A stretch of 64,000 nucleotides of DNA from assembly GCF_030160115.1 (NCBI RefSeq), contig NZ_BSNS01000011.1, positions 372,001 to 436,000 of the forward strand. Reading direction: 5' to 3'. Numbering within the stretch: position 1 is the stretch's first letter; every line of letters starts with the position of its first letter. The notes below the pieces were generated by a model. That model did no database searches and was not told where the DNA came from. It saw only the letters and a list, made by a program, of their open reading frames with translations. This document shows positions 27,524 to 48,613 of this stretch, in pieces. Source of the stretch: Devosia nitrariae (GTDB lineage: Bacteria; Pseudomonadota; Alphaproteobacteria; Rhizobiales; Devosiaceae). The position numbers and the translations under genes are program-made.

Positions 27524-27524
27524 A

Positions 27525-30229: not shown

Positions 30230-30255
30230 AGCAACGGCATTGAGCACAACCACCA

Positions 30256-31113: not shown

Positions 31114-31119
31114 GTCGGG

Positions 31120-32124: not shown

Positions 32125-32158
32125 GAGCTGTTGTCGTCCTGCACCGGCTTTCGATAAA

Positions 32159-32184: not shown

Positions 32185-32198
32185 TCCGGTTGGTCCGC

Positions 32199-34115: not shown

Positions 34116-34180
34116 TGTTTCCTCCCTGATCGAAATGCCTGGGACACTCCGTTCGGAGCGCCCTCCAGCACTCTGCGGAC

Positions 34181-34224
34181 ATGCTATCTATCGATGTAAG
34201 CTTGTCAACGCATATTATGATGCG
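34181..34224 (-). promoter_or_regulatory. Candidate promoter and operator of the oligosaccharide importer operon
   Basis: On the minus strand TTGACA (34208-34203) and TAGCAT (34186-34181) are separated by 16 bases, a good sigma-70 match placed about 65 bases before the binding-protein ATG. Directly upstream of the -35 is the inverted repeat CGCAT/ATGCG (34209-34213 and 34220-34224) with a 6-base spacer, a likely regulator site. The region is distinctly AT-rich for this genome. Confidence 0.5.
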
Positions 34225-34251
34225 AACCCGAAAACATGATATATAAACTGC

Positions 34252-34282
34252 ACGGGCGCGCTCCATTTCGAAGCGCGCCCGT
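34252..34282 (-). terminator. Terminator-like hairpin after the GH51 gene
   Basis: ACGGGCGCGCT at 34252-34262 pairs perfectly over 11 bp with AGCGCGCCCGT at 34272-34282, loop of nine bases. In the minus direction it lies about 37 bases after the GH51 stop and is followed by GCAGTTTATATAT. It would separate GH51 transcription from the importer operon. Confidence 0.55.
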
Positions 34283-34319
34283 CGATCGTGCATCTCGAGA
34301 ACACCCTCCGCGGGCGCCT

Positions 34320-35831
34320 TTACAGTTTGATGCGCACCATCTGATAAGAATAGGGGGGTAGCGAAACGGTGAGCTTGCCGCCCGCGAGTTTGGCCCCGTC
34401 GCCCTTGCGCGGCGCGACCTCCTGCTGGTTCGTGGCCGTGTTGACCGCCTTCAGGTCCGGGTGGGTCATCACCTGGTGGTCGACGACCGAGCCGTCGCCA
34501 AAGCCCTCAAGGGTCACTTCCGTATCGATGCTCGCGCTGGCGTGCCGGTTGACGAGGAAGAAGGTCAGCATGCCTTCCTCTTCGTTGTGCACGCCCGAAA
34601 CGTCGACATACGGCGTCTCCGCAGCATGCGTCGTCTCGTAGCCCGGCGAACTGGTGAGGAGCTGCATTGCGGTGCCGCGGCCGTAGACCGAGGCGAAATA
34701 GTAGGGATAGTAGATGGTCTGCGCCCAGGCCGGCCCGCCCTTTTCGGTCATGATCGGCGCAATCACATTCACCAGCTGCGCGATGCAGGCGATCTTCACC
34801 ACGTCCGAGCGGCGGATGAAGGTGTTGAGGATCAGCCCCACCATCAGCACGTCTTCGAAGTTGTAGATATCTTCCAGCAAACCGGGCGCGTGCGGCCAGC
34901 CATCGTTGCCGTCGAGGATTTTGCGGTCCTGCTTGTTGGAGTGGTACCAGACATTCCACTCATCGAACGAAATATAAACGTCGCGCCGCGACTTCTTCTT
35001 GGCCTTCACCTGCTTGATGGTGGCGGCCACCGTCTCGATGTAGCGGTCGAGCTTGTGGCTGAGCCCGAGATAGTTTGGCGTATCGTCTTCGCGGTTGGCG
35101 AAATACATGTGCAGGCTGATATGATCGACGTGATCATAGGTATGTTCCAGCACGATACGCTCCCAGTCGGGATAGCTGGGCATATCCGAGTTGGATGACC
35201 CGCAAACGATCAACTCGAGCGACTTGTCGAACATGCGCATGGCGCGAGCCGTGTTGGCCGCGAGCTTGCCGTATTCGTTGGCGTCTTTGTGGCCGACCTG
35301 CCAGGGACCGTCCATCTCATTGCCCAGACACCACATCTTGACGTTCCACGGCTCCTTGCGCCCGTTCTTGATGCGCAGGTCGCTCCAGTAGGAGCCGCCG
35401 GGGTGGTTCACATATTCGAGGAAGTTGCGGGCCTCGTCGACGCCGCGCGAACCGAGGTTTACCGCCAGCATCATCTCGGTACCGACGGTTGCGCACCAGT
35501 CGGCGAATTCGTGGACACCCACGGCGTTGCTCTCGGAGGTGTGCCAGGCGAGGTCGAGCCGCACCGGGCGCTCCTCGCGCGGGCCGATACCGTCTTCCCA
35601 GTTGTAGGCTGAAACGAAGTTGCCGCCCGGATAGCGCACGACCGGCACGTTCAGCGCCTGCACCAGCTCGGTCACATCCCCGCGCATCCCGTCGGCATCA
35701 GCGGTCGGGTGGTCCGGTTCATAGATGCCGGTATAGACGGCGCGGCCGAGGTGCTCGAGAAATGCCCCATAGACTCGGTCGTCGATCCTTGAGATCGTAT
35801 AGTCCTTGTGGGCCTTTACGGTGGCCTTCAT
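34320..35831 (-). CDS. abfA: Alpha-L-arabinofuranosidase, glycoside hydrolase family 51
   Basis: The 503-residue length is standard for GH51. The N-terminus has DRVYGAFLEHLGRAVYTGIYEPD; RYPGGNF is at residues 67-73; the acid/base Glu172 is in WCLGNEMDGPW (167-177); the nucleophile Glu291 is in SFDEWNVWY (288-296). It removes terminal arabinofuranosyl units from arabinan or arabinoxylan fragments. There is no signal peptide, so it acts in the cytoplasm on imported oligosaccharides. Two ATGs are close (35837 and 35831); GGGAGG abuts the first and is 6 bases from the second, so 35831 is chosen. A palindrome shared with the regulator promoter lies upstream. Confidence 0.94.
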   Translation of the reverse strand: MKATVKAHKDYTISRIDDRVYGAFLEHLGRAVYTGIYEPDHPTADADGMRGDVTELVQALNVPVVRYPGGNFVSAYNWEDGIGPREERPVRLDLAWHTSESNAVGVHEFADWCATVGTEMMLAVNLGSRGVDEARNFLEYVNHPGGSYWSDLRIKNGRKEPWNVKMWCLGNEMDGPWQVGHKDANEYGKLAANTARAMRMFDKSLELIVCGSSNSDMPSYPDWERIVLEHTYDHVDHISLHMYFANREDDTPNYLGLSHKLDRYIETVAATIKQVKAKKKSRRDVYISFDEWNVWYHSNKQDRKILDGNDGWPHAPGLLEDIYNFEDVLMVGLILNTFIRRSDVVKIACIAQLVNVIAPIMTEKGGPAWAQTIYYPYYFASVYGRGTAMQLLTSSPGYETTHAAETPYVDVSGVHNEEEGMLTFFLVNRHASASIDTEVTLEGFGDGSVVDHQVMTHPDLKAVNTATNQQEVAPRKGDGAKLAGGKLTVSLPPYSYQMVRIKL

Positions 35832-35858
35832 GCCCATCCTCCCTGTGAACCCGATATT

Positions 35859-35872
35859 CTGATTTGTATCAG
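35859..35872. promoter_or_regulatory. Candidate operator of the GH51 gene
   Basis: CTGAT-TTGT-ATCAG is a perfect inverted repeat 28 bases upstream of the GH51 start. Its half TGTATCAG is also present in the palindrome upstream of the adjacent ArsR-like regulator gene (36922-36929), which suggests the same protein binds both. Confidence 0.55.
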
Positions 35873-35950
35873 TCTTCGCGGTTGTACATGAGGGATGCCG
35901 CCACACGCAAGAGGCCAGCGGAAAAAACGGGAGGGTGCGGGCTACCTGCG

Positions 35951-36880
35951 CTAGCGCGCCGTCTGCAGGCGCAGCACGATGTCCTGATCGTAATTGCCGA
36001 AGCCGCGGCCGAAAATGTTGAGGCCGCCCGGATGCTTGGCCTCGTCCTTGACCGCGATGCGCAGACGGATCGAGTGATGGTTCTCGAGATCGAGATCCTT
36101 GAGCGACACAGGCGAGATCTTGAGGCCGTCGACATAAGTGCCGTTCTCGGTCACCCGCCAGCTCTTCAGCTTGCCATACTGGCTGCCCTTGAGCTTCCAC
36201 CAGGACGGGGTGTAGACGCCGCGCTTGTCGCCGAAATCGCCCGGCGAGGTCCAGGTGCCGACCTCGGTGCCGTTGACCGAGAGCGTGATGTCGGACGGCC
36301 AGTCGGCCGAGGTGCCGGGGACTTCCGAGGAGAGCTCGAGCGCCACCTCCATCGAGTCGATCCGGTTATGCGAGAGCTTGGCGTTGTTGGGAAACTGGTA
36401 TTCCACATAGCCGCGGGTGAACCAGATGAGCCCCGCCTTCATGCGGTCCGGATCAAGGAACGTGTCGGGCACGTCGAGGAGGCCGATGATGCCCTCGCTC
36501 GAGCAGAGCCCGCAGGGGGCCGACACCTGGCAGCTCGTATAGAGGCCGAGGGGCATGGCCACTTCCACGCTGTTGGAATGAAGAGGCGAGATGTCCTCCT
36601 TGAACATCACCAGCACCTCGTCGAACGTCGAGTGGCAGATCTTCTGGTTGCCCTTGCGCGCCTTCTGCGTCTCGGTGCGGATGAGCCCGGCGCTTTCCAG
36701 GATCTGCAAATTGGTCGAGACCGTCGACTGCGGCAGGCCGAGCTTCTCGGCGATCTCGTTGCCGTTCATTGGCCCCTCGACATGGAGGAGCTTGAGGATC
36801 TTGATGCGGATGGCAGAGGCCAACCCCTTGAGGACCTCGATGTCCTCCTCGGGGTCGACGACCAGGAAATTGCGGCTCAT
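35951..36880 (-). CDS. ArsR-type winged-helix regulator with a large C-terminal domain (COG4189-like)
   Basis: A 309-residue protein. Residues about 10-95 form an ArsR-like winged helix: DIEVLKGLASAIRIKILKLLHVEGPMNGNEIAEKLGLPQSTVSTNLQILESAGLIRT. The remaining 200 residues are far longer than in ordinary ArsR proteins. They contain a cysteine cluster (SCQVSAPCGLCSSEG) and a beta-rich part with LSVNGTEVGTWTSPGDFGDK, which resembles a jelly-roll carbohydrate-binding fold. ATG 36880 is chosen over an upstream TTG. The gene precedes GH51 on the same strand and is probably its sugar-responsive regulator, an inference backed by a shared palindrome. Confidence 0.8.
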   Translation of the reverse strand: MSRNFLVVDPEEDIEVLKGLASAIRIKILKLLHVEGPMNGNEIAEKLGLPQSTVSTNLQILESAGLIRTETQKARKGNQKICHSTFDEVLVMFKEDISPLHSNSVEVAMPLGLYTSCQVSAPCGLCSSEGIIGLLDVPDTFLDPDRMKAGLIWFTRGYVEYQFPNNAKLSHNRIDSMEVALELSSEVPGTSADWPSDITLSVNGTEVGTWTSPGDFGDKRGVYTPSWWKLKGSQYGKLKSWRVTENGTYVDGLKISPVSLKDLDLENHHSIRLRIAVKDEAKHPGGLNIFGRGFGNYDQDIVLRLQTAR

Positions 36881-36917
36881 GGGCGGGTAATTCTTCAGAT
36901 GTGACCGATGCGGGCAC

Positions 36918-36946
36918 AATCTGTATCAGATTTCCTGATTGAATCA
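36918..36946. promoter_or_regulatory. Two palindromes in the regulator promoter region
   Basis: AATCTG-TAT-CAGATT (36918-36932) is a perfect 15-base palindrome, and TGATT-G-AATCA (36936-36946) is a second one four bases on. Both share the TGAT/ATCA core with the GH51 upstream site (35859-35872). They lie 38-66 bases before the regulator start, in the gap divergent to the LacI gene, and fit autoregulation. Confidence 0.6.
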
Positions 36947-37069
36947 ACGCCGAGAGCTGGTGCCCTCAGGGACACGTTCCGCATAACGCTCTCTTGCCTC
37001 CAGCGACCTGACGCTTACCGCAAAAGCCTGCCCCGCTTCACAATCCTCCGAGCTGCAGTTGACATCGTC

Positions 37070-37127
37070 GCAAACGCGTGCAACGAATTTAAAGCGTTTG
37101 CAAAATGAAAAACCACGATTGCAAACG
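37070..37127. promoter_or_regulatory. Probable LacI-family operator half-sites around the lacI-type start
   Basis: GCAAACG (37070-37076), its reverse complement CGTTTGC (37095-37101) and GCAAACG again (37121-37127) are spaced 25-26 bases centre to centre. The middle one is part of the palindrome TTTGCAAA that runs up to the start codon at 37105; the third lies inside the coding region. Such a set at the start of the first gene of an operon points to autorepression. Confidence 0.5.
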
Positions 37128-38199
37128 TTCCAAAACGCCGTGGGAGGCGGAGCTGGTTTCACATCGGGCCAAGACGCTCAAGGAGCTTGCCGAGCGGTTG
37201 GACGTGTCGATCACGACCGTTTCGCGCGCGCTCGCCGGCCATCAGCAGATCGCCCTGAAGACCCGCATGCGCGTTGCCGAGGCGGCAAGGGAACTGGGCT
37301 ACGTGCCCAACCAGGCCGCGCGACAGCTCGTCTCCGGCCGCAGCGGGTTCGCCGGCTTCGTTATGCCCATTCGCGGGCTGAATTTCGCCGACTCCTATCT
37401 CGGAGAGTTCATCACCGGGCTCGGTGAAGGGCTTGTCGCCAACAACCTGGACCTTTTCCTTGCGACTGTTCCCCAGGGGCGCTCGGAGCTCACCGTCCTG
37501 CGGCACGTGGTGGAATCGGGGCGCGCGGACGGCATCGTCGTGCCGCGCATTGCAGAATCTGACGCACGCATCGACTACCTCACCCAGCGCGACTTTCCCT
37601 TTGTTGCTCACGGCAGGCTGCTCGATCCACGCGCCCGGCACCACTGGCTCGACAGCGACGGTGAAACCGCCTTTGCCGAGGCCTTCGAGTTGCTTTACGA
37701 GCTCGGCCACCGCCACATCGGCCTCATCACCATTTCCGACGCCATGACCTTTCGCCACCACCGCGAAACCGGTCTGCACCGAGCCATCGCCGCACGCGGC
37801 GATCCGGCCGTGCGCCTCGATGTCGAGGCTTTTCTCCGTTTCGACCGCGGGGCGAGCGTGGCGGCCATCAACCGCATGCTGCACGCGGACAAGCGCCCGA
37901 CGGCCATCATCGGGCTCTTCGACGAGATCGCGCTGACGATCCTCGAGGAGGCGGCCCACGCCGGTCTCTCCATTCCGCGTGATCTCTCTGTGGTCGGTTT
38001 CGACAACATTACCGCCAGCGCCTACGCGCCGCCGGGCCTGACCACCTTCGATTCCGACAACCGGGCCTGCGCACGAGAGATCGCGCAGATGCTTGTGGAC
38101 GTCATCGAAACCCGGCCGGACCAGCCGATGACCCGGTTGATCCGACCCAAACTGATCCTGCGCGCCAGCCATGGGCCCGCGCCGGATCGCGTCAACTGA
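37105..38199 (+). CDS. LacI family transcriptional repressor
   Basis: The 364-residue protein has a LacI HTH at about residues 23-70 (KTLKELAERLDVSITTVSRALAGHQQIALKTRMRVAEAARELGYVPN), shifted by a 22-residue N-terminal extension. The hinge and periplasmic-binding-like sensor follow (FAGFVMPIRGLNF; ELLYELGHRHIGLIT; LSVVGFDNITASAYAPPGLTT). A start at an internal codon would remove the extension. It sits 29 bases before the binding-protein gene, so it is the first gene of the sugar operon and probably represses itself along with it. Effector unknown. Confidence 0.92.
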   Translation: MKNHDCKRSKTPWEAELVSHRAKTLKELAERLDVSITTVSRALAGHQQIALKTRMRVAEAARELGYVPNQAARQLVSGRSGFAGFVMPIRGLNFADSYLGEFITGLGEGLVANNLDLFLATVPQGRSELTVLRHVVESGRADGIVVPRIAESDARIDYLTQRDFPFVAHGRLLDPRARHHWLDSDGETAFAEAFELLYELGHRHIGLITISDAMTFRHHRETGLHRAIAARGDPAVRLDVEAFLRFDRGASVAAINRMLHADKRPTAIIGLFDEIALTILEEAAHAGLSIPRDLSVVGFDNITASAYAPPGLTTFDSDNRACAREIAQMLVDVIETRPDQPMTRLIRPKLILRASHGPAPDRVN

Positions 38200-38228
38200 A
38201 CGCACGATTTTAAAAGGGAGGTAGAAAC

Positions 38229-39506
38229 ATGAAAATCCAATCAAGGCTGATGCTGGCGGGTGCGCTGGCGGCGGTGATGACAGCGGCCGGCACGGTCGGC
38301 GCGTCGGCGCAGGTGCTGTTCTGGTCGACCCAGGCCGCCCCCATTGAGGAGACCCAGGCCATGCGTGAGCAGGTGCTGGCAGGTTTTGAGGGCGGGGTGG
38401 ACTTTCAGCCCCAGGAGGTCGGTCCGTTCGTGACCCGCCTCGAGGCTGAGCTCGAGGCCGGTTCGGGCTCCATCGGCGTCGTCGGCGCTTTGCACGGCGA
38501 GCTCTCGACCTATGCCGACAGCTGGGCCGACCTCTCCGATGTTGACCTCGGCGGCATCCAGGTGAGCGAGGCCTTCCTCGAACTCGGCAAGCTCGGCACC
38601 GACCAGCAGCTCTATATGCCCTGGATGCAGGCAAACTACGTGATGGCTGCCAGTAACGAGGCGCTCGAATACCTGCCCGAAGGCGCCGACATCAACGCGC
38701 TGACCTATGACCAGTTCGTTGAGTGGATGGGGGTGCTGGCGAGCGAAACCGGTTCGCCCAAGTTCGGCTTCCCGGCCGGTCCCCAGGGCTTGAAGCACCG
38801 GTTCTTCCAGGGCTTCCTGCTGCCCTCCTATACCGGGTCGACCGTGACCAAGTTCCGCTCGGCCGAAGCCGAGACCGCCTGGAACAAGTTCAAGGAGCTC
38901 TGGCAGTATACCAACCCCGCCTCGACCAACTACGCGTTCATGCAGGAGCAGCTGCTCAACGGCGACGTCTGGGTAGCCTTCGACCATGTCGCGCGGCTGG
39001 CCGATGCCTTCAACCAGCGCCCCGACGATTTCGTCGCCTTCCCGGCGCCCTCGGGTCCGGTCGGACGCGGCTTCATGCCGGTGCTGGCCGGCATTGCCGT
39101 TCCCCAGGGCGCTCCGGACATCGAGCAGTCGAAGGCTTTGGTCGCCTATATGATGCAGCCCGAGACGCAGGTCGCAACGCTCAAGGCCACCAATTTCTTC
39201 CCGGTGACCGACGCGCCGCTGCCGGAGGACCTGCCGCCTTCCGCCCGTGCCCTGGGTGAGGCGATCACCACCATGACCAGCGGCGAGGACGCCCTGCCGG
39301 CGCTCCTGCCGATCGGCCTTGGCGATCTCGGCGGGCAGTTCAACCAGGTCTATACCGACACCTTCGAGCGCGTCGTGCTGGGCAACCAGGACGTGCGGCA
39401 GGTGCTCGACGAGCAGGCCAACACGCTGCGCAGCCTGATGGAGCAGGCCGGCGCCCCCTGCTGGGCGCCCGACGAGCCTTCCGAAGGACCTTGCCCGGTC
39501 GAGTAA
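38229..39506 (+). CDS. Sugar ABC transporter substrate-binding protein, family 1
   Basis: The 425-residue protein has a signal peptide (about residues 1-28, ending GASAQ) and a family 1 solute-binding fold: ALTYDQFVEWMGVLASETGSPKFGFPAGPQG, LLNGDVWVAFDHVARLADAF and VPQGAPDIEQSKALVAYMMQPETQ. GGGAGG lies just before ATG 38229. The C-terminal CWAPDEPSEGPCPVE has two Cys that may form a disulphide in the periplasm. It binds the sugar handled by the downstream GH63-like enzymes; the sugar is unknown. A strong UUCG hairpin follows. Confidence 0.9.
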   Translation: MKIQSRLMLAGALAAVMTAAGTVGASAQVLFWSTQAAPIEETQAMREQVLAGFEGGVDFQPQEVGPFVTRLEAELEAGSGSIGVVGALHGELSTYADSWADLSDVDLGGIQVSEAFLELGKLGTDQQLYMPWMQANYVMAASNEALEYLPEGADINALTYDQFVEWMGVLASETGSPKFGFPAGPQGLKHRFFQGFLLPSYTGSTVTKFRSAEAETAWNKFKELWQYTNPASTNYAFMQEQLLNGDVWVAFDHVARLADAFNQRPDDFVAFPAPSGPVGRGFMPVLAGIAVPQGAPDIEQSKALVAYMMQPETQVATLKATNFFPVTDAPLPEDLPPSARALGEAITTMTSGEDALPALLPIGLGDLGGQFNQVYTDTFERVVLGNQDVRQVLDEQANTLRSLMEQAGAPCWAPDEPSEGPCPVE

Positions 39507-39518
39507 CGCTTCCTCCCC

Positions 39519-39546
39519 GCCGCCCGACGCTTCGGCGCCGGGCGGC
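39519..39546 (+). other. Intercistronic UUCG hairpin after the sugar-binding-protein gene
   Basis: A 12-bp stem with one A-C mismatch, GCCGCCCGACGC (39519-39530) against GCGCCGGGCGGC (39535-39546), closes on a TTCG tetraloop. It lies 12 bases after the stop and 33 before the permease start. No T tract follows, so stabilisation of the upstream mRNA is the likelier role. Confidence 0.65.
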
Positions 39547-39579
39547 ACCACGAACTGAACCCGAAAGGATAGGCAGGCC

Positions 39580-40425
39580 ATGACGCCGCGTTTCCTGCCC
39601 TATGCGCTGCTCTTGCCGGCAACGCTCTTTCTGCTGGTCTTTTTCCTCTATCCGTTCGTCCAGATTGCCGTGCTCGCCTTTTCCGGGCCCGACGGGTTCA
39701 CGCTCCAACACGTGCAGACGATGACCTCGCACTGGAAATTCGGCACCGCGCTGACCAACACTATCGTGCTCGCGCTGATCGTCGTGCCGATCCAGCTGGT
39801 CATGGCGCTCTCGATGGCCACCATCGTCACCAAGCTCAGGACCGGACGCAGCGCCATCCTCTATATCTTCACCATTCCGCTCGGCCTTTCTGACCTGGCC
39901 GCCGGCATCATCTGGCTCGCCATCTTCGAGCAGTCGGGCTTCCTCAATTCGCTGCTTTATGGCCTCGGCATCATCGAGCGGCCGATCCTTTTCCTCGGTT
40001 ACCAGAACATCTGGGTGATCTTCATTGCCGTCGTCCTGGCCGAGGTCTGGCGCGCCACCGCCATCGTCATGGTGATCCTGGTTTCCGGCATGGGGCTCAT
40101 TCCGAAGGAATACTACGAGGCGGCCGAGGTATTCGGCGCCAGCCCCTGGAAGCGCTTCGTCAAGATCACCCTGCCGATGCTGCGTCCGAGCCTGCAATCG
40201 GCGCTGATCCTGCGCACTCTCGCCGCCTTCGAGGTCTTCGCCGTCGTCATAGCGCTGGGTGGCACCACCCTGCCGGTGCTGATGGGCGAGACCTTCCAGT
40301 GGCAGTTCGCCCTGCAGGACCGCAATGTCGCCTCGGCCTATGCCCTGGTCATACTCGCCATATCGGTGGTTTCGACGCTGTTCTTCCTGCGTGTCCTGCG
40401 CGTTCCCAAGGAGGCACGGATATGA
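39580..40425 (+). CDS. Sugar ABC transporter permease (MalF type)
   Basis: The 281-residue protein has six membrane spans starting at about residue 9 (LLLPATLFLLVFFLYPFVQIAVLAF). The EAA loop EYYEAAEVFGASPWKRFVKITLPMLRPSL is near residues 183-211, the signature of carbohydrate permeases. GAAAGGATAGG lies before ATG 39580. The stop overlaps the next permease (ATGA). It forms the inner-membrane channel with its partner. Confidence 0.93.
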   Translation: MTPRFLPYALLLPATLFLLVFFLYPFVQIAVLAFSGPDGFTLQHVQTMTSHWKFGTALTNTIVLALIVVPIQLVMALSMATIVTKLRTGRSAILYIFTIPLGLSDLAAGIIWLAIFEQSGFLNSLLYGLGIIERPILFLGYQNIWVIFIAVVLAEVWRATAIVMVILVSGMGLIPKEYYEAAEVFGASPWKRFVKITLPMLRPSLQSALILRTLAAFEVFAVVIALGGTTLPVLMGETFQWQFALQDRNVASAYALVILAISVVSTLFFLRVLRVPKEARI

Positions 40426-41270
40426 CCGACGCAATCCTGACCGATACACCGCGTTCGGTAAGCGATGCCCAGGCAGCCGGCCGCTTTCTCATCATCGCCT
40501 CGACCGTGCTGCTCTGCGTCTGGGTGCTGGTGCCGATCTACCTGCTGGCCGTCAACACGCTCTCGTCGCCCCAGGAGGTATCTGGCTTTCCCAAGAGCGG
40601 CGTACCATCCTTCGATTTCGGGTCGGTCCAGTTCTTCGTGTCGTTCGCTGGCGTTGCGCGGGCGCTGTGGAACTCGGTGGTCGTGGCCGTGCTCACCATG
40701 GTGCTCTCCATCGGACTCGGCGCGCCGGCCGGCTATGCGCTCACCCGCTTCGACTTTCCCGGCAAGGAGGCGTTCCGCATGCTGGTGGTGATGACGCGGG
40801 CTTTCCCGCTCCCGCTGCTGGCGCTGCCTCTGGCGGTGATGTTCATCCGCGTCGGGCTCGACGACACGGCCCTCGGCCTTGCGCTGGTACACACGGTCCT
40901 CGCCATCCCCTTTGCCGTGCTCATCACCTTCTCGATCTTTTCCGGCATTCCCATAGAGCTCGAGGAAGCGGCCTGGACGCTCGGTTGCAATCGCTGGCAA
41001 GCCTTCCAGAAGGTGGTGCTGCCGCTAGTGCTGCCCGGCATCACCGCCTCGGCGGTCTTCGCCTTCACCATCTCCTGGAACGAGGTGTTCGCGGCCGCGG
41101 TCCTGACTATCGAGAACCGCACGCTGACGGCCTTTCTCGTTCAGAATCTCAACGTCTCGCCGCTGCACCTGAAATTCGCCGGCGGCGCGGCGCTCGTCAT
41201 TCCGGCGCTGATCTTCATCTTCGCGGTGCGCAAGTACCTGTTTTCGATGTGGGGCATCGCCAACCGTTAG
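40422..41270 (+). CDS. Sugar ABC transporter permease (MalG type)
   Basis: A 282-residue membrane protein with a cytoplasmic N-tail, first span FLIIASTVLLCVWVLVPIYLLAV, YALTRFDFPGKEAFRMLVVMT, and EAA loop PIELEEAAWTLGCNRWQAFQKVVLPLVLPGI. The C-terminus KYLFSMWGIANR is like other MalG-type proteins. ATG 40422 overlaps the upstream stop and GGAGG lies 6 bases before it, which fixes the start. Confidence 0.93.
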   Translation: MTDAILTDTPRSVSDAQAAGRFLIIASTVLLCVWVLVPIYLLAVNTLSSPQEVSGFPKSGVPSFDFGSVQFFVSFAGVARALWNSVVVAVLTMVLSIGLGAPAGYALTRFDFPGKEAFRMLVVMTRAFPLPLLALPLAVMFIRVGLDDTALGLALVHTVLAIPFAVLITFSIFSGIPIELEEAAWTLGCNRWQAFQKVVLPLVLPGITASAVFAFTISWNEVFAAAVLTIENRTLTAFLVQNLNVSPLHLKFAGGAALVIPALIFIFAVRKYLFSMWGIANR

Positions 41271-41281
41271 GAGGCAAGCTG

Positions 41282-42322
41282 ATGGCTGAAATTCTCATCA
41301 AGAACGTCGCCAAGAGCTTCGGCAGCTTCAAGGCGCTGCACTCGATTGACCTCGAGATCGCCGACCAGGAATTCATGGTGCTGCTCGGCGCCTCGGGCTG
41401 CGGCAAGACCACGCTCTTACGCATCGTTGCCGGCCTCGAGACGCCGACGCAGGGCGAGGTCTGGATCGGCGGGCGGCGGGTCGACCATCTGCCGCCGCGC
41501 GAGCGCGGGATCGCCATGGTATTCCAGAACTACGCGGTCTTCCCGCATCTGACGGTCTTTGAGAACATCGCCTTTGGCCTCCGCATGAAGAAGCTACCAC
41601 AGGCCGACATTGACAGGCGCGTCACCCGCACGGCCGAGCTGATGCACATCGAGCAGCTCTTGAAGCGCTATTCCGGCCAGCTCTCGGGCGGCCAGCGCCA
41701 GCGCGTTGCGGTTGCCCGTGCGCTCGCAATGGAACCGGACGTGATCCTGATGGACGAGCCGCTCTCCAACCTCGACGCGCTTCTGCGCCTCGAGATGCGC
41801 GCCGAACTCAAGGGCGTACTTGCCGCGAGCAAGACGACGACCATCTACGTGACTCACGATCAGGTCGAGGCGATGAGCCTTGCCGACCGCATTTCGGTGA
41901 TGAACCAGGGCCGCATCGTACAGGCGGCGACGCCCGTCGAGGTCTATCGCAATCCGGCGGCCCGGTTCGTCGGCAGCTTCATCGGCAACCCGCCGATGAA
42001 CTTCATTCCCGCAATGAAGGCGGGCGAGGGCAAATGGACCGTCGCCGGCATCACCATCGACGGGCCGCGGGCCGGTCGCGACCGGCTTGATTTCGCCATC
42101 CGTCCCGAGGATGTCGACGTCGCGCCCGGCGGGCTGAAGGCGACCGCACGGGTCGTCGAGCCACTCGGTGCCCACACCCTGGTGACGACCGATATCGAGG
42201 GGGCGATGTTCCGCGCCGTCCTCGATTCCGACATCCGCGTTTCGCCAGGAGACGAATTGAGCCTCGTGCCTAAGCCCGACCGGGTACGCTGGTTCGATCC
42301 CGAGACGACGGCCGCGGTGTGA
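41282..42322 (+). CDS. Sugar ABC transporter ATP-binding protein (UgpC/MalK type)
   Basis: The 346-residue ATPase has Walker A GASGCGKTTLLR near residues 37-48, QNYAVFPHLTV, signature LSGGQRQRVAVARAL, Walker B VILMDEPLSNLDA and VTHDQVEAMSLADR. The C-terminal 110 residues form a TOBE-type regulatory domain (FAIRPEDVDV). It energises the upstream permeases. GGAGG lies upstream of ATG 41282. Its last bases overlap a possible GTG start of the next gene. Confidence 0.95.
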   Translation: MAEILIKNVAKSFGSFKALHSIDLEIADQEFMVLLGASGCGKTTLLRIVAGLETPTQGEVWIGGRRVDHLPPRERGIAMVFQNYAVFPHLTVFENIAFGLRMKKLPQADIDRRVTRTAELMHIEQLLKRYSGQLSGGQRQRVAVARALAMEPDVILMDEPLSNLDALLRLEMRAELKGVLAASKTTTIYVTHDQVEAMSLADRISVMNQGRIVQAATPVEVYRNPAARFVGSFIGNPPMNFIPAMKAGEGKWTVAGITIDGPRAGRDRLDFAIRPEDVDVAPGGLKATARVVEPLGAHTLVTTDIEGAMFRAVLDSDIRVSPGDELSLVPKPDRVRWFDPETTAAV

Positions 42323-42339
42323 GAACGGGAAGGTCGCAA

Positions 42340-43611
42340 GTGATCGTCGAGGATACCGACAGCGTCCGGCGGCGGGCCATCGACGTGCTGCGCGAGAACG
42401 ACCGCGGCAGCTATACCGTGCCGACCAAAGGCCTCTATCCCTTCCAGTGGAACTGGGATTCCTGCTTTACCGCCCTCGGCCAGTCCCACTACGACCTCGA
42501 CCGCGCCTGGACCGAGATCGAGACGCTCTTTGCCCACCAGTGGGACGACGGCATGGTGCCGCACATGGTGTTCCACGAAGCAGCGCCCGGTTATTTTCCG
42601 GGACCAGACGTCTGGGGCACAGAGCGGCCGACACCGACTTCCGGCATCACCCAGCTGCCGATCGCGGGTTTTGCCGTGAACCAGCTCCGACTACGCAGTG
42701 CCGGCAGCCATGAGAGCCGGGCCCGCGAACTGCTCGGCAAGGTGGATGCCTGGCACGACTGGTTCTACCGCACCCGCGATCCGCAAGGGGAGGGGCTGGT
42801 CGCCATCATCCATCCGTGGGAATCGCGCGATAACGCGATCGATTGGGACGAGGCGTTCGAGCGCGTGCCGACAGAAGGCGTAATGGCTTACGAGCGCAAC
42901 GACCTCAAGCATGCCGACCCAGCCACACGGCCGACCAAGGCGCAGTACGACCGTTACCTCTGGCTGGTTCAGCACTTCCGCGGCCTCGGCTGGGATTCCG
43001 TGCGGCTTCACGACGCATCGCCTTTCCAGATCATCGATCCGGGCTTCAATGCCATCCTCATTCGCTCCTGCCTCGAAGCGGCGGAGCTTGCCGAGGCGCT
43101 AGGCGAAAGCGAAACCGCCACGCGCAATCGCACGCGCGCTCAGCACGGTCTGGCGGCGCTCGAGCGCCTGTGGAGCGAGCGGCATGGGCAATATCTCTGC
43201 CTCGACCGCGTCGCCCGCACTCTTGTCGATAGCCCCTCGATCGGCGGCCTGATCCCGCTCTTTGCCCCCATCCCGGCGGAGCGGGTCGACGCGTTGGAAA
43301 AAACGCTCGAGGAGATGGGCGAAGACGTGCGCTACCTCGTTGCCAGCCACAGCCCGCGCGACCCCCGCTTCGATCTCAAGCGCTACTGGCGCGGCCCCGT
43401 CTGGCTCGTCTGCAACTATATGCTCGCCGACGGCTTGAAGCGGGCAGGCAGGGTGAATCTCTCTCAGAGCATCGTTGCCGACAGCCTTGAACTGATCCGG
43501 CAGAGCGGCTTTGCCGAATACTATGATCCGCGCGATGGCGCGCCGCTTGGCGGCGGACGGTTCAGCTGGACGGCGGCGATGGTGCTCGAATTCCTGGAGC
43601 CGGTGTCATGA
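42340..43611 (+). CDS. GH63-like (MGH1) glycoside hydrolase, first paralogue
   Basis: A 423-residue (alpha/alpha)6-barrel enzyme of the mannosylglycerate-hydrolase-like group: GLYPFQWNWDSCF (31-43), NAIDWDEAFERVP (165-177) with the probable acid, KRYWRGPVWLVCNYM (347-361) and FAEYYDPRDGAPLGG (391-405) with the probable base Glu393, then FSWTAAMVLEFL. GTG 42340 has GGAAGG 6 bases upstream and is chosen over GTG 42319. No signal peptide, so it acts on imported glycosides. Relatives hydrolyse mannosylglycerate or glucosylglycerate; the substrate here is unproven. A second copy lies at 45057. Confidence 0.87.
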   Translation: MIVEDTDSVRRRAIDVLRENDRGSYTVPTKGLYPFQWNWDSCFTALGQSHYDLDRAWTEIETLFAHQWDDGMVPHMVFHEAAPGYFPGPDVWGTERPTPTSGITQLPIAGFAVNQLRLRSAGSHESRARELLGKVDAWHDWFYRTRDPQGEGLVAIIHPWESRDNAIDWDEAFERVPTEGVMAYERNDLKHADPATRPTKAQYDRYLWLVQHFRGLGWDSVRLHDASPFQIIDPGFNAILIRSCLEAAELAEALGESETATRNRTRAQHGLAALERLWSERHGQYLCLDRVARTLVDSPSIGGLIPLFAPIPAERVDALEKTLEEMGEDVRYLVASHSPRDPRFDLKRYWRGPVWLVCNYMLADGLKRAGRVNLSQSIVADSLELIRQSGFAEYYDPRDGAPLGGGRFSWTAAMVLEFLEPVS

Positions 43612-44285
43612 CGGGTTTTGCGTCCTTCGCACGTTCGAGTGGCGCCCAGTCGCTGGCCACCTTCGGCGACAGCATCACCTTCGGCATGTCCGCGAGTACG
43701 CCCGAGCGCGCCTGGCCGAGCTTGCTGGCTGGTGAAATCGGCATCGCGCTGGTCAACAAGGGGATATCGGGCACGGTGCTGCAGAACTCCCCGGCGATCG
43801 GCGGAGAGCCGCGCCCCGACAATGGCTGGTCGCGTCACAAGGCGGACCTGCTGGGACCTGACCGCGCCGACTGCATCGCCATCCTCTACGGCTTCAACGA
43901 CGCCCGCTTTGTCGGCGCGCCCGAGACCTTCAATATCGAAGGCTTCATCCGCGACTATCGCGATGTCGTCGGCAATTTGGTGAACTCCGGCTACCGGCCC
44001 GAGGCGATCTGCCTCGGCAGCCCACCGCACATCCCCGACGACGGCTTTGCAGTGGGCTCGGAAGGTTTCACCGGCCAGACCCGCGAGGGGTTCCAGACGC
44101 ATGTCGAGGCGGTCAGGGAAATCGCCCGCCAGTACGGCACCTACTATGCGCCGGTCAACGAACGCATGGCCGCCGAGGGTGGGGATGAGCTTGTCAGTGA
44201 CGACAAGGTCCATCCCAACGATGCAGGTCACGCCAAGATCGCGCAGATCTTTGCCGAAGCGGAAAGGCTGGCCGATGAGTTCTGA
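43608..44285 (+). CDS. SGNH/GDSL-type hydrolase (esterase or deacylase)
   Basis: The 225-residue protein has the SGNH blocks: block I FGDSITFG (nucleophile Ser) near residues 19-26, block II NKGISGTV near 50 (Gly), block III YGFNDARF near 95 (Asn), block V VHPNDAGH near 207 with the Asp and His. It lacks a signal peptide. Its ATG overlaps the GH63-like stop and its end overlaps the SDR start, so it is part of the same pathway. A likely role is removal of acyl groups from the imported glycoside. Confidence 0.87.
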   Translation: MTGFASFARSSGAQSLATFGDSITFGMSASTPERAWPSLLAGEIGIALVNKGISGTVLQNSPAIGGEPRPDNGWSRHKADLLGPDRADCIAILYGFNDARFVGAPETFNIEGFIRDYRDVVGNLVNSGYRPEAICLGSPPHIPDDGFAVGSEGFTGQTREGFQTHVEAVREIARQYGTYYAPVNERMAAEGGDELVSDDKVHPNDAGHAKIAQIFAEAERLADEF

Positions 44286-45045
44286 GAGCGCCGCCGTCGT
44301 CATCACCGGTGCGGCCATGGGCATCGGCCGGGCCGTGGCCGAGGCGTATGCGGCGCAGGGCCGATCTATGGTGCTCTTCGACCGTGACGCCGAAATGCTG
44401 ACACAGGTGGCCGAGGCGCTTGGCCCCAGCGCTCATGCCGTTGCCGGTTCGGTGACCTCCCCAACCGACTGCGAGCATGCCGTGCTCGAGGCGATCACCC
44501 GCTTCGGCGGTGTCTCGGCAGTTTCGCATAATGCCGGAATCCAGCGCTACGGCGATGTGCTGACAACAAGCCGCGACCTCTGGGACGAGGTTATCGACGT
44601 CAACCTGACCGGCGGTTTCAATATCGCCAAGGCGGCAATGCCGGAACTGCGCCGGCATCACGGCGCCATCTGCTTTACCGCCTCGGTGCAGGGCATGGCG
44701 GCTCAGAAGGGGGCGCTCGCCTATGTGGTGGCCAAGCATGGGCTGGTCGGTCTGGTGACCGCCATGGCCATGGACGAGGCCGAACACGGCGTGCGTGTCC
44801 TTGGCGTCGCACCGGGATCGGTCGATACGCCCATGCTGCGCTGGGCGATCGAGCGCGACCCCGATCCGGCCGCGCTCTCGGCCGAGATCGACGCCATGCA
44901 TCCCATCGGCCGCCGCGCGAGACCCGACGAAGTCGCCACGGTGATCGCCTTCCTCCTTTCGGAGGTCAACAGTTTCATGACCGGGGAGACGGTGCGGGTC
45001 GATGGCGGCCTTTTAGCGCGTATTCCCGGCGCCCCAAAAAAGTAG
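44275..45045 (+). CDS. Short-chain dehydrogenase/reductase
   Basis: A 256-residue classical SDR: cofactor motif TGAAMGIGRA near residues 11-20, NAG in SHNAGIQRYG, catalytic Ser in CFTASVQG, and YVVAK with Tyr and Lys near 152-156, then APGSVDTPM. The C-terminus FMTGETVRVDGGLLARI is typical. Asp at the end of beta2 (LFDRD) suggests NAD(H) preference. It overlaps the GDSL gene by 11 bases. It probably oxidises a product of the adjacent hydrolases. Confidence 0.92.
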   Translation: MSSESAAVVITGAAMGIGRAVAEAYAAQGRSMVLFDRDAEMLTQVAEALGPSAHAVAGSVTSPTDCEHAVLEAITRFGGVSAVSHNAGIQRYGDVLTTSRDLWDEVIDVNLTGGFNIAKAAMPELRRHHGAICFTASVQGMAAQKGALAYVVAKHGLVGLVTAMAMDEAEHGVRVLGVAPGSVDTPMLRWAIERDPDPAALSAEIDAMHPIGRRARPDEVATVIAFLLSEVNSFMTGETVRVDGGLLARIPGAPKK

Positions 45046-45056
45046 AGTGCCTTGCA

Positions 45057-46334
45057 ATGACCACCCTCGATAAGTCCCGGACGTTCGATCTTGCCGTTGA
45101 CGTTCTCAAGGAAAACGATCGCGGCAGCTACACCGTGCCGACCAAGGGGCTCTATCCCTTCCAGTGGAACTGGGACTCGTGCTTTACCGCCCTCGGGCAG
45201 AACTACTATGACGAGGATCGGGCCTGGACCGAGATCGAGACTCTCTTCGATCACCAGTGGCCGGACGGCATGGTGCCGCATATCGTCTTCCACGTCCGCG
45301 ACGACGGCTATTTCCCCGGTCCCGACGTCTGGGCGACCGGGCGGCCGACGCCGACCTCCGGCATCACGCAGCCGCCGATCGCCGGGTTTGCCCTGCGCCA
45401 GATGTTTGAGCGTGCCGGGGACAAGGCGGCGGCCGAGCGGCGAGCCCGCGCGCTTCTCCCCAAGATCGACAAGTGGTTCGCTTGGTTCTACGCTAATCGC
45501 GATCCACACGGAGAAGGGCTGGTGGCGATCCTCCATCCCTGGGAGGCCGGGCGGGACAACTCTATCGATTGGGACGAGGCATTCGAGCGTGTGCCGACGC
45601 AAGGCATCACCCCTTATACCCGCCGCGATACCCAGCACGCCGATCCTTCGCACCGCCCGACCAAGGCGCAGTACGACCGCTATCTCTGGCTGGTCGAGCA
45701 TTTTCGCGGGCTCGGGTGGGACAACAGCAAGCTGCACGACGCCTCGCCGTTCCAGATCGTTGACCCGGGCTTCAATGCCATCCTCATCCGCGGTTGCGCG
45801 GATCTGGCGGCGGTCGCCGAAGCGCTGGGCGAGCCGGGGATCGCCGCGGCCAACCGCGCCCGTGCCGATAGGGGACTGGTCGCACTCGAGCGCCTGTGGA
45901 GCGAGTGGCATGGGCAATATCTCTGCCTCGACCGCACGACCGGCAGACTCGTCGACAGCGCCTCGATCGGTGGGCTGCTTCCGGTCTTTGCCGCCATCCC
46001 TGCCGAGCGGGCGCGAACCATCGCCCGAACCATTGAGACGATTGCGGGCCGGGCAAAGTACCTTGTGCCGAGCCATGATCCCGCGGACACCCGGTTCGAC
46101 GCCAAGCGCTATTGGCGTGGGCCGGTCTGGCTGGTGTGCAACTATCTCATCGTCGACGGCCTTTCGGCGGCCGGCGAAAAGCCCGTCGCCGACCGGATCA
46201 TCGCATCGAGCCTCGAGCTGATCGAAAAGAGCGGCTTTGCCGAATACTACGACCCGATGACCGGCGAGCCTCTCGGGGGTGGGCGCTTCACCTGGACCGC
46301 AGCGATGGTGCTTGAGTTCCTTGACTGGGCATAA
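45057..46334 (+). CDS. GH63-like (MGH1) glycoside hydrolase, second paralogue
   Basis: The 425-residue protein is closely similar to the gene at 42340 throughout: ENDRGSYTVPTKGLYPFQWN, NSIDWDEAFERVPTQG, RYWRGPVWLVCNY and GFAEYYDPMTGEPLGGG, with identical presumed catalytic residues. Differences cluster between about residues 110-140 and 245-330. It starts 11 bases after the SDR gene and ends the operon. The pair probably arose by duplication, with GDSL and SDR genes now between the copies. Different linkage or chain-length preference is likely but not readable. Confidence 0.87.
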   Translation: MTTLDKSRTFDLAVDVLKENDRGSYTVPTKGLYPFQWNWDSCFTALGQNYYDEDRAWTEIETLFDHQWPDGMVPHIVFHVRDDGYFPGPDVWATGRPTPTSGITQPPIAGFALRQMFERAGDKAAAERRARALLPKIDKWFAWFYANRDPHGEGLVAILHPWEAGRDNSIDWDEAFERVPTQGITPYTRRDTQHADPSHRPTKAQYDRYLWLVEHFRGLGWDNSKLHDASPFQIVDPGFNAILIRGCADLAAVAEALGEPGIAAANRARADRGLVALERLWSEWHGQYLCLDRTTGRLVDSASIGGLLPVFAAIPAERARTIARTIETIAGRAKYLVPSHDPADTRFDAKRYWRGPVWLVCNYLIVDGLSAAGEKPVADRIIASSLELIEKSGFAEYYDPMTGEPLGGGRFTWTAAMVLEFLDWA

Positions 46335-46420
46335 AAGCGATTCTATGGCAACGGGTTAGACCGGTGGACGGAATCTCTGGCTGAGGGTGAAGGACCTGAA
46401 TCAGTGTGTGAGGAAGGCCG

Positions 46421-47395
46421 CTAAAGCGATACCTCCCGCCCTTCCTCTGCCGATTGCCGCGCCGCGAGCACGATGCGCAGCGAATCTGCGCCGTCCGAGA
46501 GTGGCACCTTGGGTCTGCGTCCGTCCGTGATCGCGCCGATCACGTCGCCGAGCTGGGCGACGAACACGTCCTTGTCGCTCCGAACCGTCTCGCTTTTCAC
46601 CTCACCGGCAGTGGTGACGACTTGCCCGGTATTGAAATCGGAAAAGCTGCCGGTCGCCCGTTCGGCGATGATCTTCCAGCCCTTCTCCGACTTGCCCGGC
46701 GCCGCCGCGTTCGACGCATTGACGAGGCCGATGCGGCCGTCCTCATAGCCGAGGATCATGGCGCTGACATCCTCGGTGTCGTAGCGCTCCACGTTGCGAT
46801 GGAAGAGGTTGGCGGCCTTGGCATAGACGGTCCTGGGCATGCCGAGCGTATGGCGGGCAAGGTCGACGATGTGGATGAGCTGCTCGACCGTCTGCCCGCC
46901 CGAGAGCGCCCGCTCGCGCCACCACGGCGAGTGCAGCGAGTTGGTATGGTAGAAGCCGGTGAACATGCCTGGCCGTCCGACATCGGCCGCGTCCCAGCGT
47001 TCCACCGCCTCACCGAACCGGTACATGAAGCCGCACGCGGCAACGATTCCCGCCTCGTCCGCTGCCGCAACCATCGCGTTTGCCCGCTCCATGTCGAGGG
47101 CGATGGGCTTTTCGACGAGAAGGTGCACGCCCTTGGCGGCCGCAGCTTCGACCTGTCCGGTATGCGCGAAAGGCGGCAGGGCGACGATGAGAAGATCGAG
47201 CTTCTCGCGCTCGAGCATCGCTTCGAAGTCGGTATAGACTGCGCCGCCGTGCTCGGACGCGAAGGCTGCGGTCCGATCGGCGTCGCGCCCGCAGCAGGCG
47301 ACGAACTTGGCCTTGTCGGGCAGTTGCGCGAGCGCCTTGACATGGCGTGCACCGATGCCGCCTGGGCCGAGGAGGCCGACGCGAACGAGGCTCAT
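46421..47395 (-). CDS. Gfo/Idh/MocA family NAD(P)-dependent oxidoreductase
   Basis: A 324-residue protein with N-terminal Rossmann motif VGLLGPGGIGARHVKAL at residues 6-22, the family motif VEKPIALDMERANAMV near 93-108 with the catalytic Lys, and a C-terminal beta-sheet domain (GWKIIAERATGSFSDF). It oxidises sugars, inositols or related polyols. Its ATG overlaps the upstream MDR dehydrogenase stop (ATGA). It converges with the GH63 operon. Substrate unknown. Confidence 0.9.
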   Translation of the reverse strand: MSLVRVGLLGPGGIGARHVKALAQLPDKAKFVACCGRDADRTAAFASEHGGAVYTDFEAMLEREKLDLLIVALPPFAHTGQVEAAAAKGVHLLVEKPIALDMERANAMVAAADEAGIVAACGFMYRFGEAVERWDAADVGRPGMFTGFYHTNSLHSPWWRERALSGGQTVEQLIHIVDLARHTLGMPRTVYAKAANLFHRNVERYDTEDVSAMILGYEDGRIGLVNASNAAAPGKSEKGWKIIAERATGSFSDFNTGQVVTTAGEVKSETVRSDKDVFVAQLGDVIGAITDGRRPKVPLSDGADSLRIVLAARQSAEEGREVSL

Positions 47396-48441
47396 GAGAG
47401 ATCTCCAAATATCAGGACGGATTGCATGATCGCGGGGTCCCCGGCATCGAGCCGGGCAAAGAGGGCGGGCGCTTCTGAAAAGGGGACGGCATCGGTAATG
47501 AGCGGTAGCAGGTTCAGCCGCCCCTCATGCTGTAGCCGCACCGCCGTCTGCCAGAGCCGCAGCTTGCTCCAGCGGTGACTGGCGGCCGGCGCGACGCCGG
47601 AGATCTGGCTGGAAACGACTTCGATGCGGTTGTGGTGGAATTCCTCGCCCAGCATCAGCCCGCGCGCCTCGCCCTGAAAGAAGCCGAGCGCCACCACCCG
47701 CGACGCATAGGCGACGGTCCGCATGGCCTCGGCGAGGGCAGGAGCGGCACCCGAGACTTCGATGCAGACATCGGCTCCACGCCCGCCGGTTTCGGCCTTT
47801 ATGGTGTCGGAGACCGAGACCGCGCTCGGATCGAGCACTTTGTCGGCGCCGAGCGAGAGCGCGAGCTCCCGCCGCGAAGCCACGGGGTCGACGCCGACGA
47901 CGGTCGCGCCCGACGCACGCGCCGCCTGGGCGACGATCTGGCCGGGCACGCCGAGCCCGAAGACCACCACCAGATCGCCCATGCGGATCTGCGCGTCGTG
48001 CACGCCGTTGAGCGCTACCGCGCCGATATGGGAAAAAATGCCGATGCGCGCGTCGGCTCCGTCCGGCATCAGTCGGTCGAGCGCGTCTGCCTCACTCATC
48101 ATATGGCCGGTGCGGTGGCCCCAGGTGCCGAAGACGTGCTGCCCGACCCGGAGGCCGGTGACGGCGTTGCCGACAGCTATGATCTCACCGACCTCCTCGT
48201 AGCCGAGATTGCGCACCGGATAGGTCCAGCTCGGCCCGCCGTCGCGGAAGACACGGGCTGTCGCGTCCCACCGCTTGTGCATGTACGGGCTGGTGCCGCG
48301 ATATTGGGAAAGCTCGGTGCCGGCGCTGATACCGGAAAGAAGTGTGCGGATGCGGACGCCGTCGGGCGGCAGCTCGACAGGCGCGTATTCCTCGAAAGCG
48401 AGCTCGCGAGGTCCGGCCACAACCAGAACGTGTTCGGTCAA
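47392..48441 (-). CDS. Medium-chain dehydrogenase/reductase (zinc-type ADH superfamily, BchC-like)
   Basis: The 349-residue MDR protein begins with TTG at 48441, chosen because GGGAGG lies 6 bases upstream. It has a GroES-like N-domain with LLSGISAGTELSQYRG, where classical ADHs carry the catalytic zinc Cys, NLGYEEVGEIIAVG in place of GHE, and the Rossmann part VVVFGLGVPGQIVAQAARASGATVVGVDP near residue 150. Loss of the catalytic zinc ligands places it with SAGTE-type MDRs. It is translated with the Gfo/Idh enzyme, a frequent pairing in sugar catabolic loci. A palindrome CAAGCGCTTG lies just upstream. Confidence 0.85.
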   Translation of the reverse strand: MTEHVLVVAGPRELAFEEYAPVELPPDGVRIRTLLSGISAGTELSQYRGTSPYMHKRWDATARVFRDGGPSWTYPVRNLGYEEVGEIIAVGNAVTGLRVGQHVFGTWGHRTGHMMSEADALDRLMPDGADARIGIFSHIGAVALNGVHDAQIRMGDLVVVFGLGVPGQIVAQAARASGATVVGVDPVASRRELALSLGADKVLDPSAVSVSDTIKAETGGRGADVCIEVSGAAPALAEAMRTVAYASRVVALGFFQGEARGLMLGEEFHHNRIEVVSSQISGVAPAASHRWSKLRLWQTAVRLQHEGRLNLLPLITDAVPFSEAPALFARLDAGDPAIMQSVLIFGDLS

Positions 48442-48458
48442 TTGATCCTCCCTCGGCC

Positions 48459-48468
48459 CAAGCGCTTG
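48459..48468. promoter_or_regulatory. Palindrome upstream of the MDR dehydrogenase gene
   Basis: CAAGCGCTTG is a perfect 10-base palindrome 18 bases upstream of the TTG start, in the 172-base gap shared with the divergent lactonase gene. Its CG centre is like LacI-family operators. It differs from the GCAAACG half-sites near the lacI-type gene, so another regulator may be involved. Confidence 0.35.
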
Positions 48469-48613
48469 AAATCCTAACCGAATTTGATCGAGGGCCAAAC
48501 ACTTCGACGAACGATCTTCGGAATCCGGACGAGATATTTACAGAATCGGGGACTTGAACTGAAAACAGGAAAGGGCGAAGCCTTGCCGGCCTCTCACATA
48601 TCGGATTTCACCC

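Follow-up and report, generated by a model that had tools for sequence, protein, structure and literature searches.

A LacI-headed import operon of Devosia nitrariae with two unequal hydrolases of the mannosylglycerate/glucosylglycerate-hydrolase family and an SGNH hydrolase linked to the divergent copy

Here we analysed a stretch of 64,000 nucleotides from the Devosia nitrariae genome (called the window throughout) and, within it, an operon headed by a LacI-family regulator that encodes an importer and two hydrolases of the mannosylglycerate/glucosylglycerate-hydrolase family (MGH, GH63), MGH1 and MGH2, which enclose an SGNH/GDSL hydrolase (SGNH) and a short-chain dehydrogenase (SDR). We consider it moderately probable that the operon serves, under repression by LacI, to scavenge alpha-hexosyl-glycerates, and that MGH1 and SGNH have been added to it as a module for a decorated form of the glycoside. 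Comparative sequence analysis backs the operon, its unique operator, the family of the two hydrolases, their acid/base pair and glycerate pocket, the remodelling of MGH1 and the linkage between MGH1 and SGNH. What best supports a changed role of MGH1 is the clustering of its amino acid changes at the active site.

Organization of the operon

The genes are all open, lie on the forward strand and form a single run in the order LacI-SBP-permease-permease-ATPase-MGH1-SGNH-SDR-MGH2 (SBP, solute-binding protein). The initial annotation had counted eight genes where nine are present; its description of a LacI-headed import operon with GH63-like enzymes holds, the enzymes being members of the MGH family (PF22422). 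The genes are:

37105-38199, + strand, LacI-family regulator (PF00356 and PF13377; 90% identity to the Devosia geojensis copy)
38229-39506, + strand, solute-binding protein of a CUT1-type importer (PF13416/PF01547)
39580-40425, + strand, importer permease 1 (PF00528)
40422-41270, + strand, importer permease 2 (PF00528; start from sequence)
41282-42322, + strand, importer ATPase of UgpC/MalK type (PF00005 and TOBE_2; start from sequence)
42319-43611, + strand, MGH1, GH63 MGH-family hydrolase without Gly180 (PF22422, 350 bits)
43608-44285, + strand, SGNH/GDSL hydrolase (PF13472, 76 bits; S22, N97, D199, H202)
44275-45045, + strand, SDR, aldose/glucose-1-dehydrogenase-like (PF13561, 185 bits; start from sequence)
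45057-46334, + strand, MGH2, GH63 MGH-family hydrolase with Gly180 and standard contacts (PF22422, 373 bits)

Four of the junctions overlap and the remaining gaps measure 11, 11, 29 and 73 bp, while positions 37070-37104 lie upstream of the LacI start codon and carry operator sites. The start codons of permease 2, the ATPase and the SDR were taken from our reading of the sequence; the frames used in the searches began up to two codons before the start so read, or one codon after it in the case of the SDR. The SBP, the two permeases and the single TOBE-bearing ATPase, all in one gene run, make up a predicted CUT1-type importer. The ATPase scored 404 bits against NF008653 (cutoff 432), the SBP had no relative of solved structure at E 1e-5, and a search for terminators and promoters over 46200-46600 found none. 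The identical nine genes occur in the same order in Devosia geojensis (L009), the nearest named locus, where they are 79-96% identical to those of the window, and in Devosia ginsengisoli (L079). The dN/dS ratios of MGH1, SGNH, SDR and MGH2 against two relatives ranged between 0.07 and 0.29, indicating purifying selection.

Both hydrolases belong to the MGH family

MGH1 and MGH2 match PF22422 over its full length (profile positions 1-356 of 356, cutoff 27 bits) and are 70% identical to each other over 411 aligned columns; the best solved relative of MGH2 in the PDB search was 2z07 (Thermus TTHA0978, E 4.5e-115). We aligned 99 related copies (taken where the hits of a locus reached 900 bases or more) with the two window copies and two references, excluding the shorter pieces of loci L010 and L018, which were treated separately. 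Related copies were typed as MGH1 by best match to the MGH1 of the window, and all eight so typed also lie directly upstream of SGNH. Positions follow the numbering of MhGgH, the glucosylglycerate hydrolase of M. hassiacum, with which the mycobacterial hydrolase chains 6g3n and 5ohc were equated via their residue numbers. The catalytic acid Asp182 and base Glu419 are present in MGH1, MGH2 and all 99 related copies, and the glycerate-pocket residues Tyr36, Trp40, Tyr88, Arg216 and Tyr375 are kept in both copies of the window. The catalytic pair and the glycerate-binding residues are as named for MhGgH in the available part of PMC6608630; for its Gln434 we used position 433, where the glutamine stands in the PDB chain compared. 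Among 23 active-site positions MGH2 differs from MhGgH at 191, 432, 433 and 435, and at the first three of these MGH1 is also unlike MhGgH.

Changes of MGH1 at the active site

The initial annotation had ascribed identical presumed catalytic residues to the two paralogues, and this is correct for the acid and the base; the active sites nevertheless differ, as MGH1 lacks Gly180. Between Trp177 and Asp182 the protein has one residue fewer, and this glycine is absent in all nine full-length MGH1 copies (the window and eight orthologues) and present in the 92 other aligned copies, in five of five more distant relatives (43-48% identity to MGH2) and in both references. The available portion of PMC6608630 describes binding of the sugar by the Gly180 carbonyl in MhGgH and counts this glycine among the strictly conserved residues of all characterised MgH enzymes. 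MGH2 carries this mark of the family and MGH1 does not, and because the residue is missing in MGH1 and its eight orthologues we class MGH1, from its sequence, as a divergent MGH relative and do not assign it as a mannosylglycerate or glucosylglycerate hydrolase. The type can be recognized by the motif HPWES-RDN, which stands where other copies have HPWE[SAT]G-RDN.

Thirteen clade-specific positions set MGH1 apart from the other copies, and six of them (79, 86, 116, 180, 215 and 435) lie no more than two residues from substrate contacts. In eight control clades of the same tree, hand-picked from it and with 35 of their 69 clade-specific positions coming from one three-row clade, a single position of the 69 was found at contacts (Fisher P 3e-5); the probability becomes 0.001 when this three-row clade is left out and 0.003 if Ser435 is dropped too. 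For the same 13 positions, hypergeometric P values were 0.012 with all positions as background and 0.0008 with the variable ones. The MGH1 copies form one clade (SH-aLRT 100, branch length 0.51) in what is a quick tree with long reference branches, from which we used only this clade and its pairs. Equivalence of MGH1 and MGH2 was rejected on these grounds, the loss of Gly180 and the clade-specific sites pointing to a remodelled active site in MGH1.

Linkage between MGH1 and SGNH

SGNH was found beside MGH in ten distinct loci (the window, L009, L010, L017, L035, L079, L116, L119, L121 and L124), and in nine of them it is flanked by MGH1 upstream and MGH2 downstream. Among 136 genomes of the family, MGH matches (E 1e-150) occurred in 26, two MGH copies in eight, the deletion signature in eight and SGNH in 13. 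The two-copy genomes and the signature genomes are the same eight, and in all eight SGNH stands between the copies; one of them (G090) holds both contexts in which SGNH is found. The remaining five SGNH genomes comprise four (G066, G106, G116 and G117) with the gene in the context of a LacI-FAD-oxidoreductase operon, and the genome of locus L010 (G050). A sample of 397 genomes from the order had the signature only in the genome of the window, and SGNH in five genomes including this one. With a single genome per species and common descent among related species, these linkage counts do not represent independent events.

The trees of the two genes have three genome pairs in common (window/L009, L035/L116 and L121/L124), and in 98% of 200 bootstrap trees a branch set the SGNH sequences of MGH loci apart from the others, the support of the branch itself being 85/87. 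This agreement fits joint inheritance of MGH1 and SGNH, although the genomes of each pair are closely related as well. Locus L018 carries an N-terminal MGH piece (9992-10444) with the MGH1-type residues Met79, Ala85 and Pro86, followed by an intact MGH2, and has no SGNH; here the tandem has likely collapsed, with most of MGH1 and the SGNH gene lost together.

The initial annotation had suggested a search for conserved neighbourhoods with both hydrolases, the GDSL gene and the SDR. Such conservation holds for the two MGH copies and SGNH, which are co-inherited in the same eight of 136 genomes, but not for the SDR. This gene is present in four of the ten SGNH-MGH loci, inside the operon in the window, L009 and L079 and divergent from LacI in L121; it is optional rather than a constant part of the system, and we rejected it as a core partner.

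The importer-MGH core in relatives

Our comparison set consisted of the best 80 of at least 557 confirmed relatives from a scan of reference genomes. All four importer genes and MGH were found in 72 of these 80 loci, with a LacI hit in 70 of the 72. A D-lyxose/D-mannose isomerase gene stands behind MGH in 11 of 91 loci, four of which have a glycerate kinase too, and none of the 11 has SGNH or PIG-L within 7 kb; the combination of isomerase and kinase is seen in Rhodobacterales. Deinococcus has genes for a glycerate kinase and a ROK-family protein after the core, and Meiothermus one for a sugar phosphorylase with the motifs TETN and PYELC, those of glucosylglycerate phosphorylase being TETN and PYELN in the part of PMC10608839 available. 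Because of these isomerase, kinase, ROK and phosphorylase neighbours, the core very probably serves the uptake and hydrolysis of alpha-hexosyl-glycerates; the combination of isomerase, glycerate kinase and MGH would fit mannosylglycerate best, and the Meiothermus phosphorylase points to glucosylglycerate. In the Devosia nitrariae genome no GpgS-type synthase scores at cutoff level (best 55 of 262 bits; the search did not extend to mannosyl-3-phosphoglycerate synthase), a result that fits scavenging and makes the turnover of a self-made solute less likely.

PIG-L family genes occur within 7 kb in 19 of the 82 loci without SGNH, a few of them confirmed by Pfam or annotation. A PIG-L deacetylase lies directly behind MGH in the importer-MGH operons L030 (11242-11946), L053 (9631-10320), L089 and L092; the nearest NCBIfam model of the L030 protein is BshB1 (68 bits, cutoff 182.5). 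This position suggests N-acetylated glycosyl-hydroxyacids such as GlcNAc-malate as possible substrates.

SGNH hydrolase and SDR

The SGNH catalytic residues S22, N97, D199 and H202 (motifs GDS, GxND and Asp-x-x-His) are kept in 20 of 20 sequences, and the glycine of block II is G in 13 and A in seven of them. By eye the protein has no signal peptide, and the search of solved structures gave one weak local match (4rsh, E 0.0047). A sister clade, 46-57% identical and with the same catalytic residues, is found in Devosiaceae and on Rhizobium and Sinorhizobium plasmids, where SGNH is divergent from a LacI-FAD-oxidoreductase-importer operon with a different importer; no MGH was found in the stretches fetched around these genes. 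From this distribution SGNH may be an esterase with a general accessory function in glycoside import, or else an oxidoreductase-linked lactonase.

We observed this other operon, LacI-FAD_oxidored (PF12831)-SBP-permeases-ATPase with divergent SGNH, in nine loci (L093:1367-9669, L094, L007, L118, L120, L122, L123, L125 and L127), six of which continue with a 230 aa protein without Pfam match.

The nearest solved relatives of the SDR include 3vtz and 2dtd, and the closest is named glucose 1-dehydrogenase. The fourth in the list, 2dtd, is a glucose-1-dehydrogenase-related protein that we take to be the Thermoplasma aldohexose dehydrogenase. The latter enzyme oxidises mannose to mannonolactone, as given in the available part of PMC6901390.

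Probable local regulation by LacI

Three operator-like sites form a cluster at 37068-37134:

37068-37083, no strand, weaker operator-like site
37088-37103, no strand, LacI-type operator-like site TTTAAAGCGTTTGCAA (pattern matching)
37119-37134, no strand, second LacI-type operator-like site (pattern matching)

A scan with the operator pattern gave two matches at three or fewer mismatches (0.11 expected), and one with a palindromic consensus gave four (0.07 expected), the fourth lying inside a permease gene. Across the genome of 5.54 Mb, the sites at 37088-37103 and 37119-37134 are the sole matches to TTTAAARCGTTTGCAA at up to two mismatches, the reversed pattern giving one match. A LacI-type box (three or fewer mismatches to a consensus picked by us) precedes the codons of the LacI helix-turn-helix in 39 of 60 related loci and in 2 of 1200 shuffles. 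Since the pair is unique in the genome and relatives have boxes before LacI, the regulator probably acts locally on this operon; a wider LacI regulon was rejected, there being no further genomic site within two mismatches of TTTAAARCGTTTGCAA.

Proposed pathway and alternative explanations

In the pathway that we propose, LacI would repress a scavenging operon for solutes of the mannosylglycerate/glucosylglycerate type and the CUT1 importer would carry the glycoside into the cytoplasm, where MGH2 would hydrolyse plain alpha-hexosyl-D-glycerate to hexose and D-glycerate by an inverting mechanism. MGH1 and SGNH would be an added and co-inherited module widening this range to a decorated glycoside: SGNH would strip the decorating group (most likely O-acyl), and MGH1, its pocket beside the catalytic acid re-cut, would handle the decorated or otherwise altered glycoside. 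Where present, the SDR would most likely oxidise the freed sugar to its lactone, replacing the mannose isomerase of other lineages. The compound transported, the repression, the order of the steps, the acyl group and the reaction of the SDR are what we infer here.

Several observations weigh against this proposal. At the level of the enzymes, both hydrolases stay below the cutoff of the glucosylglycerate hydrolase equivalog NF047898 (341 and 358 bits, cutoff 550), Ser435, one of the six contact-site residues of MGH1, is the reference state too, and other kinds of SDR score nearly equal to the dehydrogenases named above, leaving many possible substrates. With respect to the linkage, shared ancestry alone gives part of the association between MGH1 and SGNH and of the agreement between their trees; SGNH persists without an intact MGH1 in L010, where it stands with MGH2 and a C-terminal remnant of MGH1; and, as the sister clade of SGNH lies beside an operon without MGH, a glycosylglycerate need not be its substrate. 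Of the nine other SGNH-type loci, six have a GH36-like gene nearby and three a PIG-L gene, which may point to a larger glycoside; some have an EamA-type gene. The substrate assignment is weakened by the isomerase, glycerate kinases and phosphorylase of the relatives, which score below their NCBIfam equivalog cutoffs, so that these names rest on annotation and best profile, and by the window itself, where the pair of isomerase and glycerate kinase that would mark a mannosylglycerate catabolic operon is not present. The single MOFRL glycerate kinase of the genome is encoded on a different contig, and the genome has no match to the mannose isomerase profile PF07385; the isomerase route was discarded here for this reason, and oxidation of the freed sugar is thereby a reasonable but unproven route.

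A bolder form of the proposal can be put forward tentatively, and we find it possible though doubtful: MGH1 and SGNH would be a dedicated module for an undescribed O-acylated or esterified alpha-glycosyl-glycerate, the loss of Gly180 would mark a new specificity within GH63, and the LacI-ABC-MGH operons would be a modular family equipped with isomerase and kinase, with phosphorylase, or with PIG-L or SGNH.

Changes at the tunnel, the cap and the loop beside the acid of MGH1 could also be accommodated if the substrate were a di-hexosyl-glycerate, of mannosylglucosylglycerate or diglucosylglycerate type, of which MGH1 would trim the outer hexose and MGH2 cleave the inner hexosyl-glycerate, with SGNH removing a chain ester; the GH36-like gene near six of the nine other SGNH-type loci likewise suggests an extra sugar. 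We regard this explanation as unlikely, because MGH1 retains the Arg216, Tyr36, Tyr88 and Tyr375 pocket, which an exo-enzyme acting on the outer sugar would not need, and the GH36 of the SGNH-type relatives had no match in the genome of the window, in a search made without a positive control.

A low probability is also what we give to SGNH being, instead of a deacylase, a lactonase that opens the aldonolactone produced by a dehydrogenase (the SDR here and the FAD oxidoreductase in the sister operons). An oxidoreductase gene does accompany SGNH in both of its contexts, in some or all loci, and the name of the best solved relative of the SDR agrees with such a function; the SDR, however, is missing from six of the ten loci with SGNH beside MGH, and the window has a lactonase gene of its own (PF10282, 48614-49702).

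That MGH1 is a redundant or decaying duplicate without a new role, with SGNH merely hitch-hiking, is improbable in spite of its long branch (0.51) and of the remnants in L010 and L018, given its dN/dS of 0.12-0.18, the intact catalytic residues of all nine full copies, the concentration of its divergence at the active site and the full-length MGH1 in all eight tandem genomes of the family.

Neighbouring loci

Convergent to the operon lie two genes that are perhaps accessory:

46421-47395, - strand, Gfo/Idh/MocA oxidoreductase
47392-48498, - strand, MDR dehydrogenase

Such a pair occurs within 7 kb of MGH in eight of the nine other SGNH-type loci as against two of the 82 loci without SGNH, and PIG-L and SGNH are near each other in L017, L035 and L116. 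These neighbours may belong to the same catabolic route, in which case the natural substrate would be larger than a simple hexosyl-glycerate.

The PF10282 lactonase gene lies on the forward strand, divergent from the MDR dehydrogenase, and has a match in L009 only among 88 loci. Further downstream, two adjacent amidohydrolase-like proteins, 41% identical to each other, are encoded on the reverse strand (54021-55160 and 55177-56313), with a Pfam amidohydrolase match for the second only; they resemble PhnM. Beyond them are ABC-ATPase-like open reading frames (56322-58201). Upstream of the operon the window holds a separate sugar cluster (23691-36919) with a GH4 enzyme, an Opp-type importer (28213-34115), an arabinofuranosidase (PF06964) and an ArsR-type regulator, together with AraC-like and aldo/keto-reductase-like open reading frames named by eye.

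Relation to known systems and significance

The mannosylglycerate hydrolase of Thermus thermophilus (TTHA0978, PDB 2z07/4wva) and MhGgH share with MGH1 and MGH2 the PF22422 domain, Asp182, Glu419 and the glycerate pocket; what distinguishes the window proteins is their place in an importer operon, the missing Gly180 of MGH1 and, with respect to MhGgH, positions 191, 432 and 433 in both copies. LacI-ABC-MGH operons of Loktanella and Paracoccus (with D-mannose isomerase and glycerate kinase), Deinococcus and Meiothermus have the same order SBP-permease-permease-ATPase-MGH and, as here, a regulator with a LacI-type or substrate-binding domain upstream, but a single MGH, no SGNH or SDR in between, and product-processing genes instead; none of the literature matches listed described them experimentally. 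In importer-MGH operons of Rhodobacterales, Pelagibacterium and Chelatococcus the same core is followed by a putative deacylase, which belongs to the PIG-L N-deacetylase family and not, as here, to SGNH.

The initial annotation had seen in this operon a candidate for an undescribed catabolic system. Judged by titles and the opening of abstracts, no operon of this make-up is described among the open-access literature matches listed, but its core is a variant of a widespread operon linked to glycosylglycerates, so that the greater part of the system is not new. The family of the hydrolases, the type of importer and the solutes are already known; as far as we checked, the tandem in which a copy without Gly180 is tied to SGNH is undescribed.

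Many microbes have mannosylglycerate and glucosylglycerate as compatible solutes; the uptake and use of these compounds by environmental bacteria are poorly mapped in the searchable literature. Gene context now ties a large operon family of Alphaproteobacteria and Deinococcota to these two compounds. The HPWES-RDN mark flags two co-inherited enzymes that should act on a modified glycosylglycerate, and a natural-product question is thereby turned into an ordinary enzyme assay. If the bolder form of the proposal is true, the modular LacI-ABC-MGH family would read out the glycosyl-glycerate chemistry of soil and sea.

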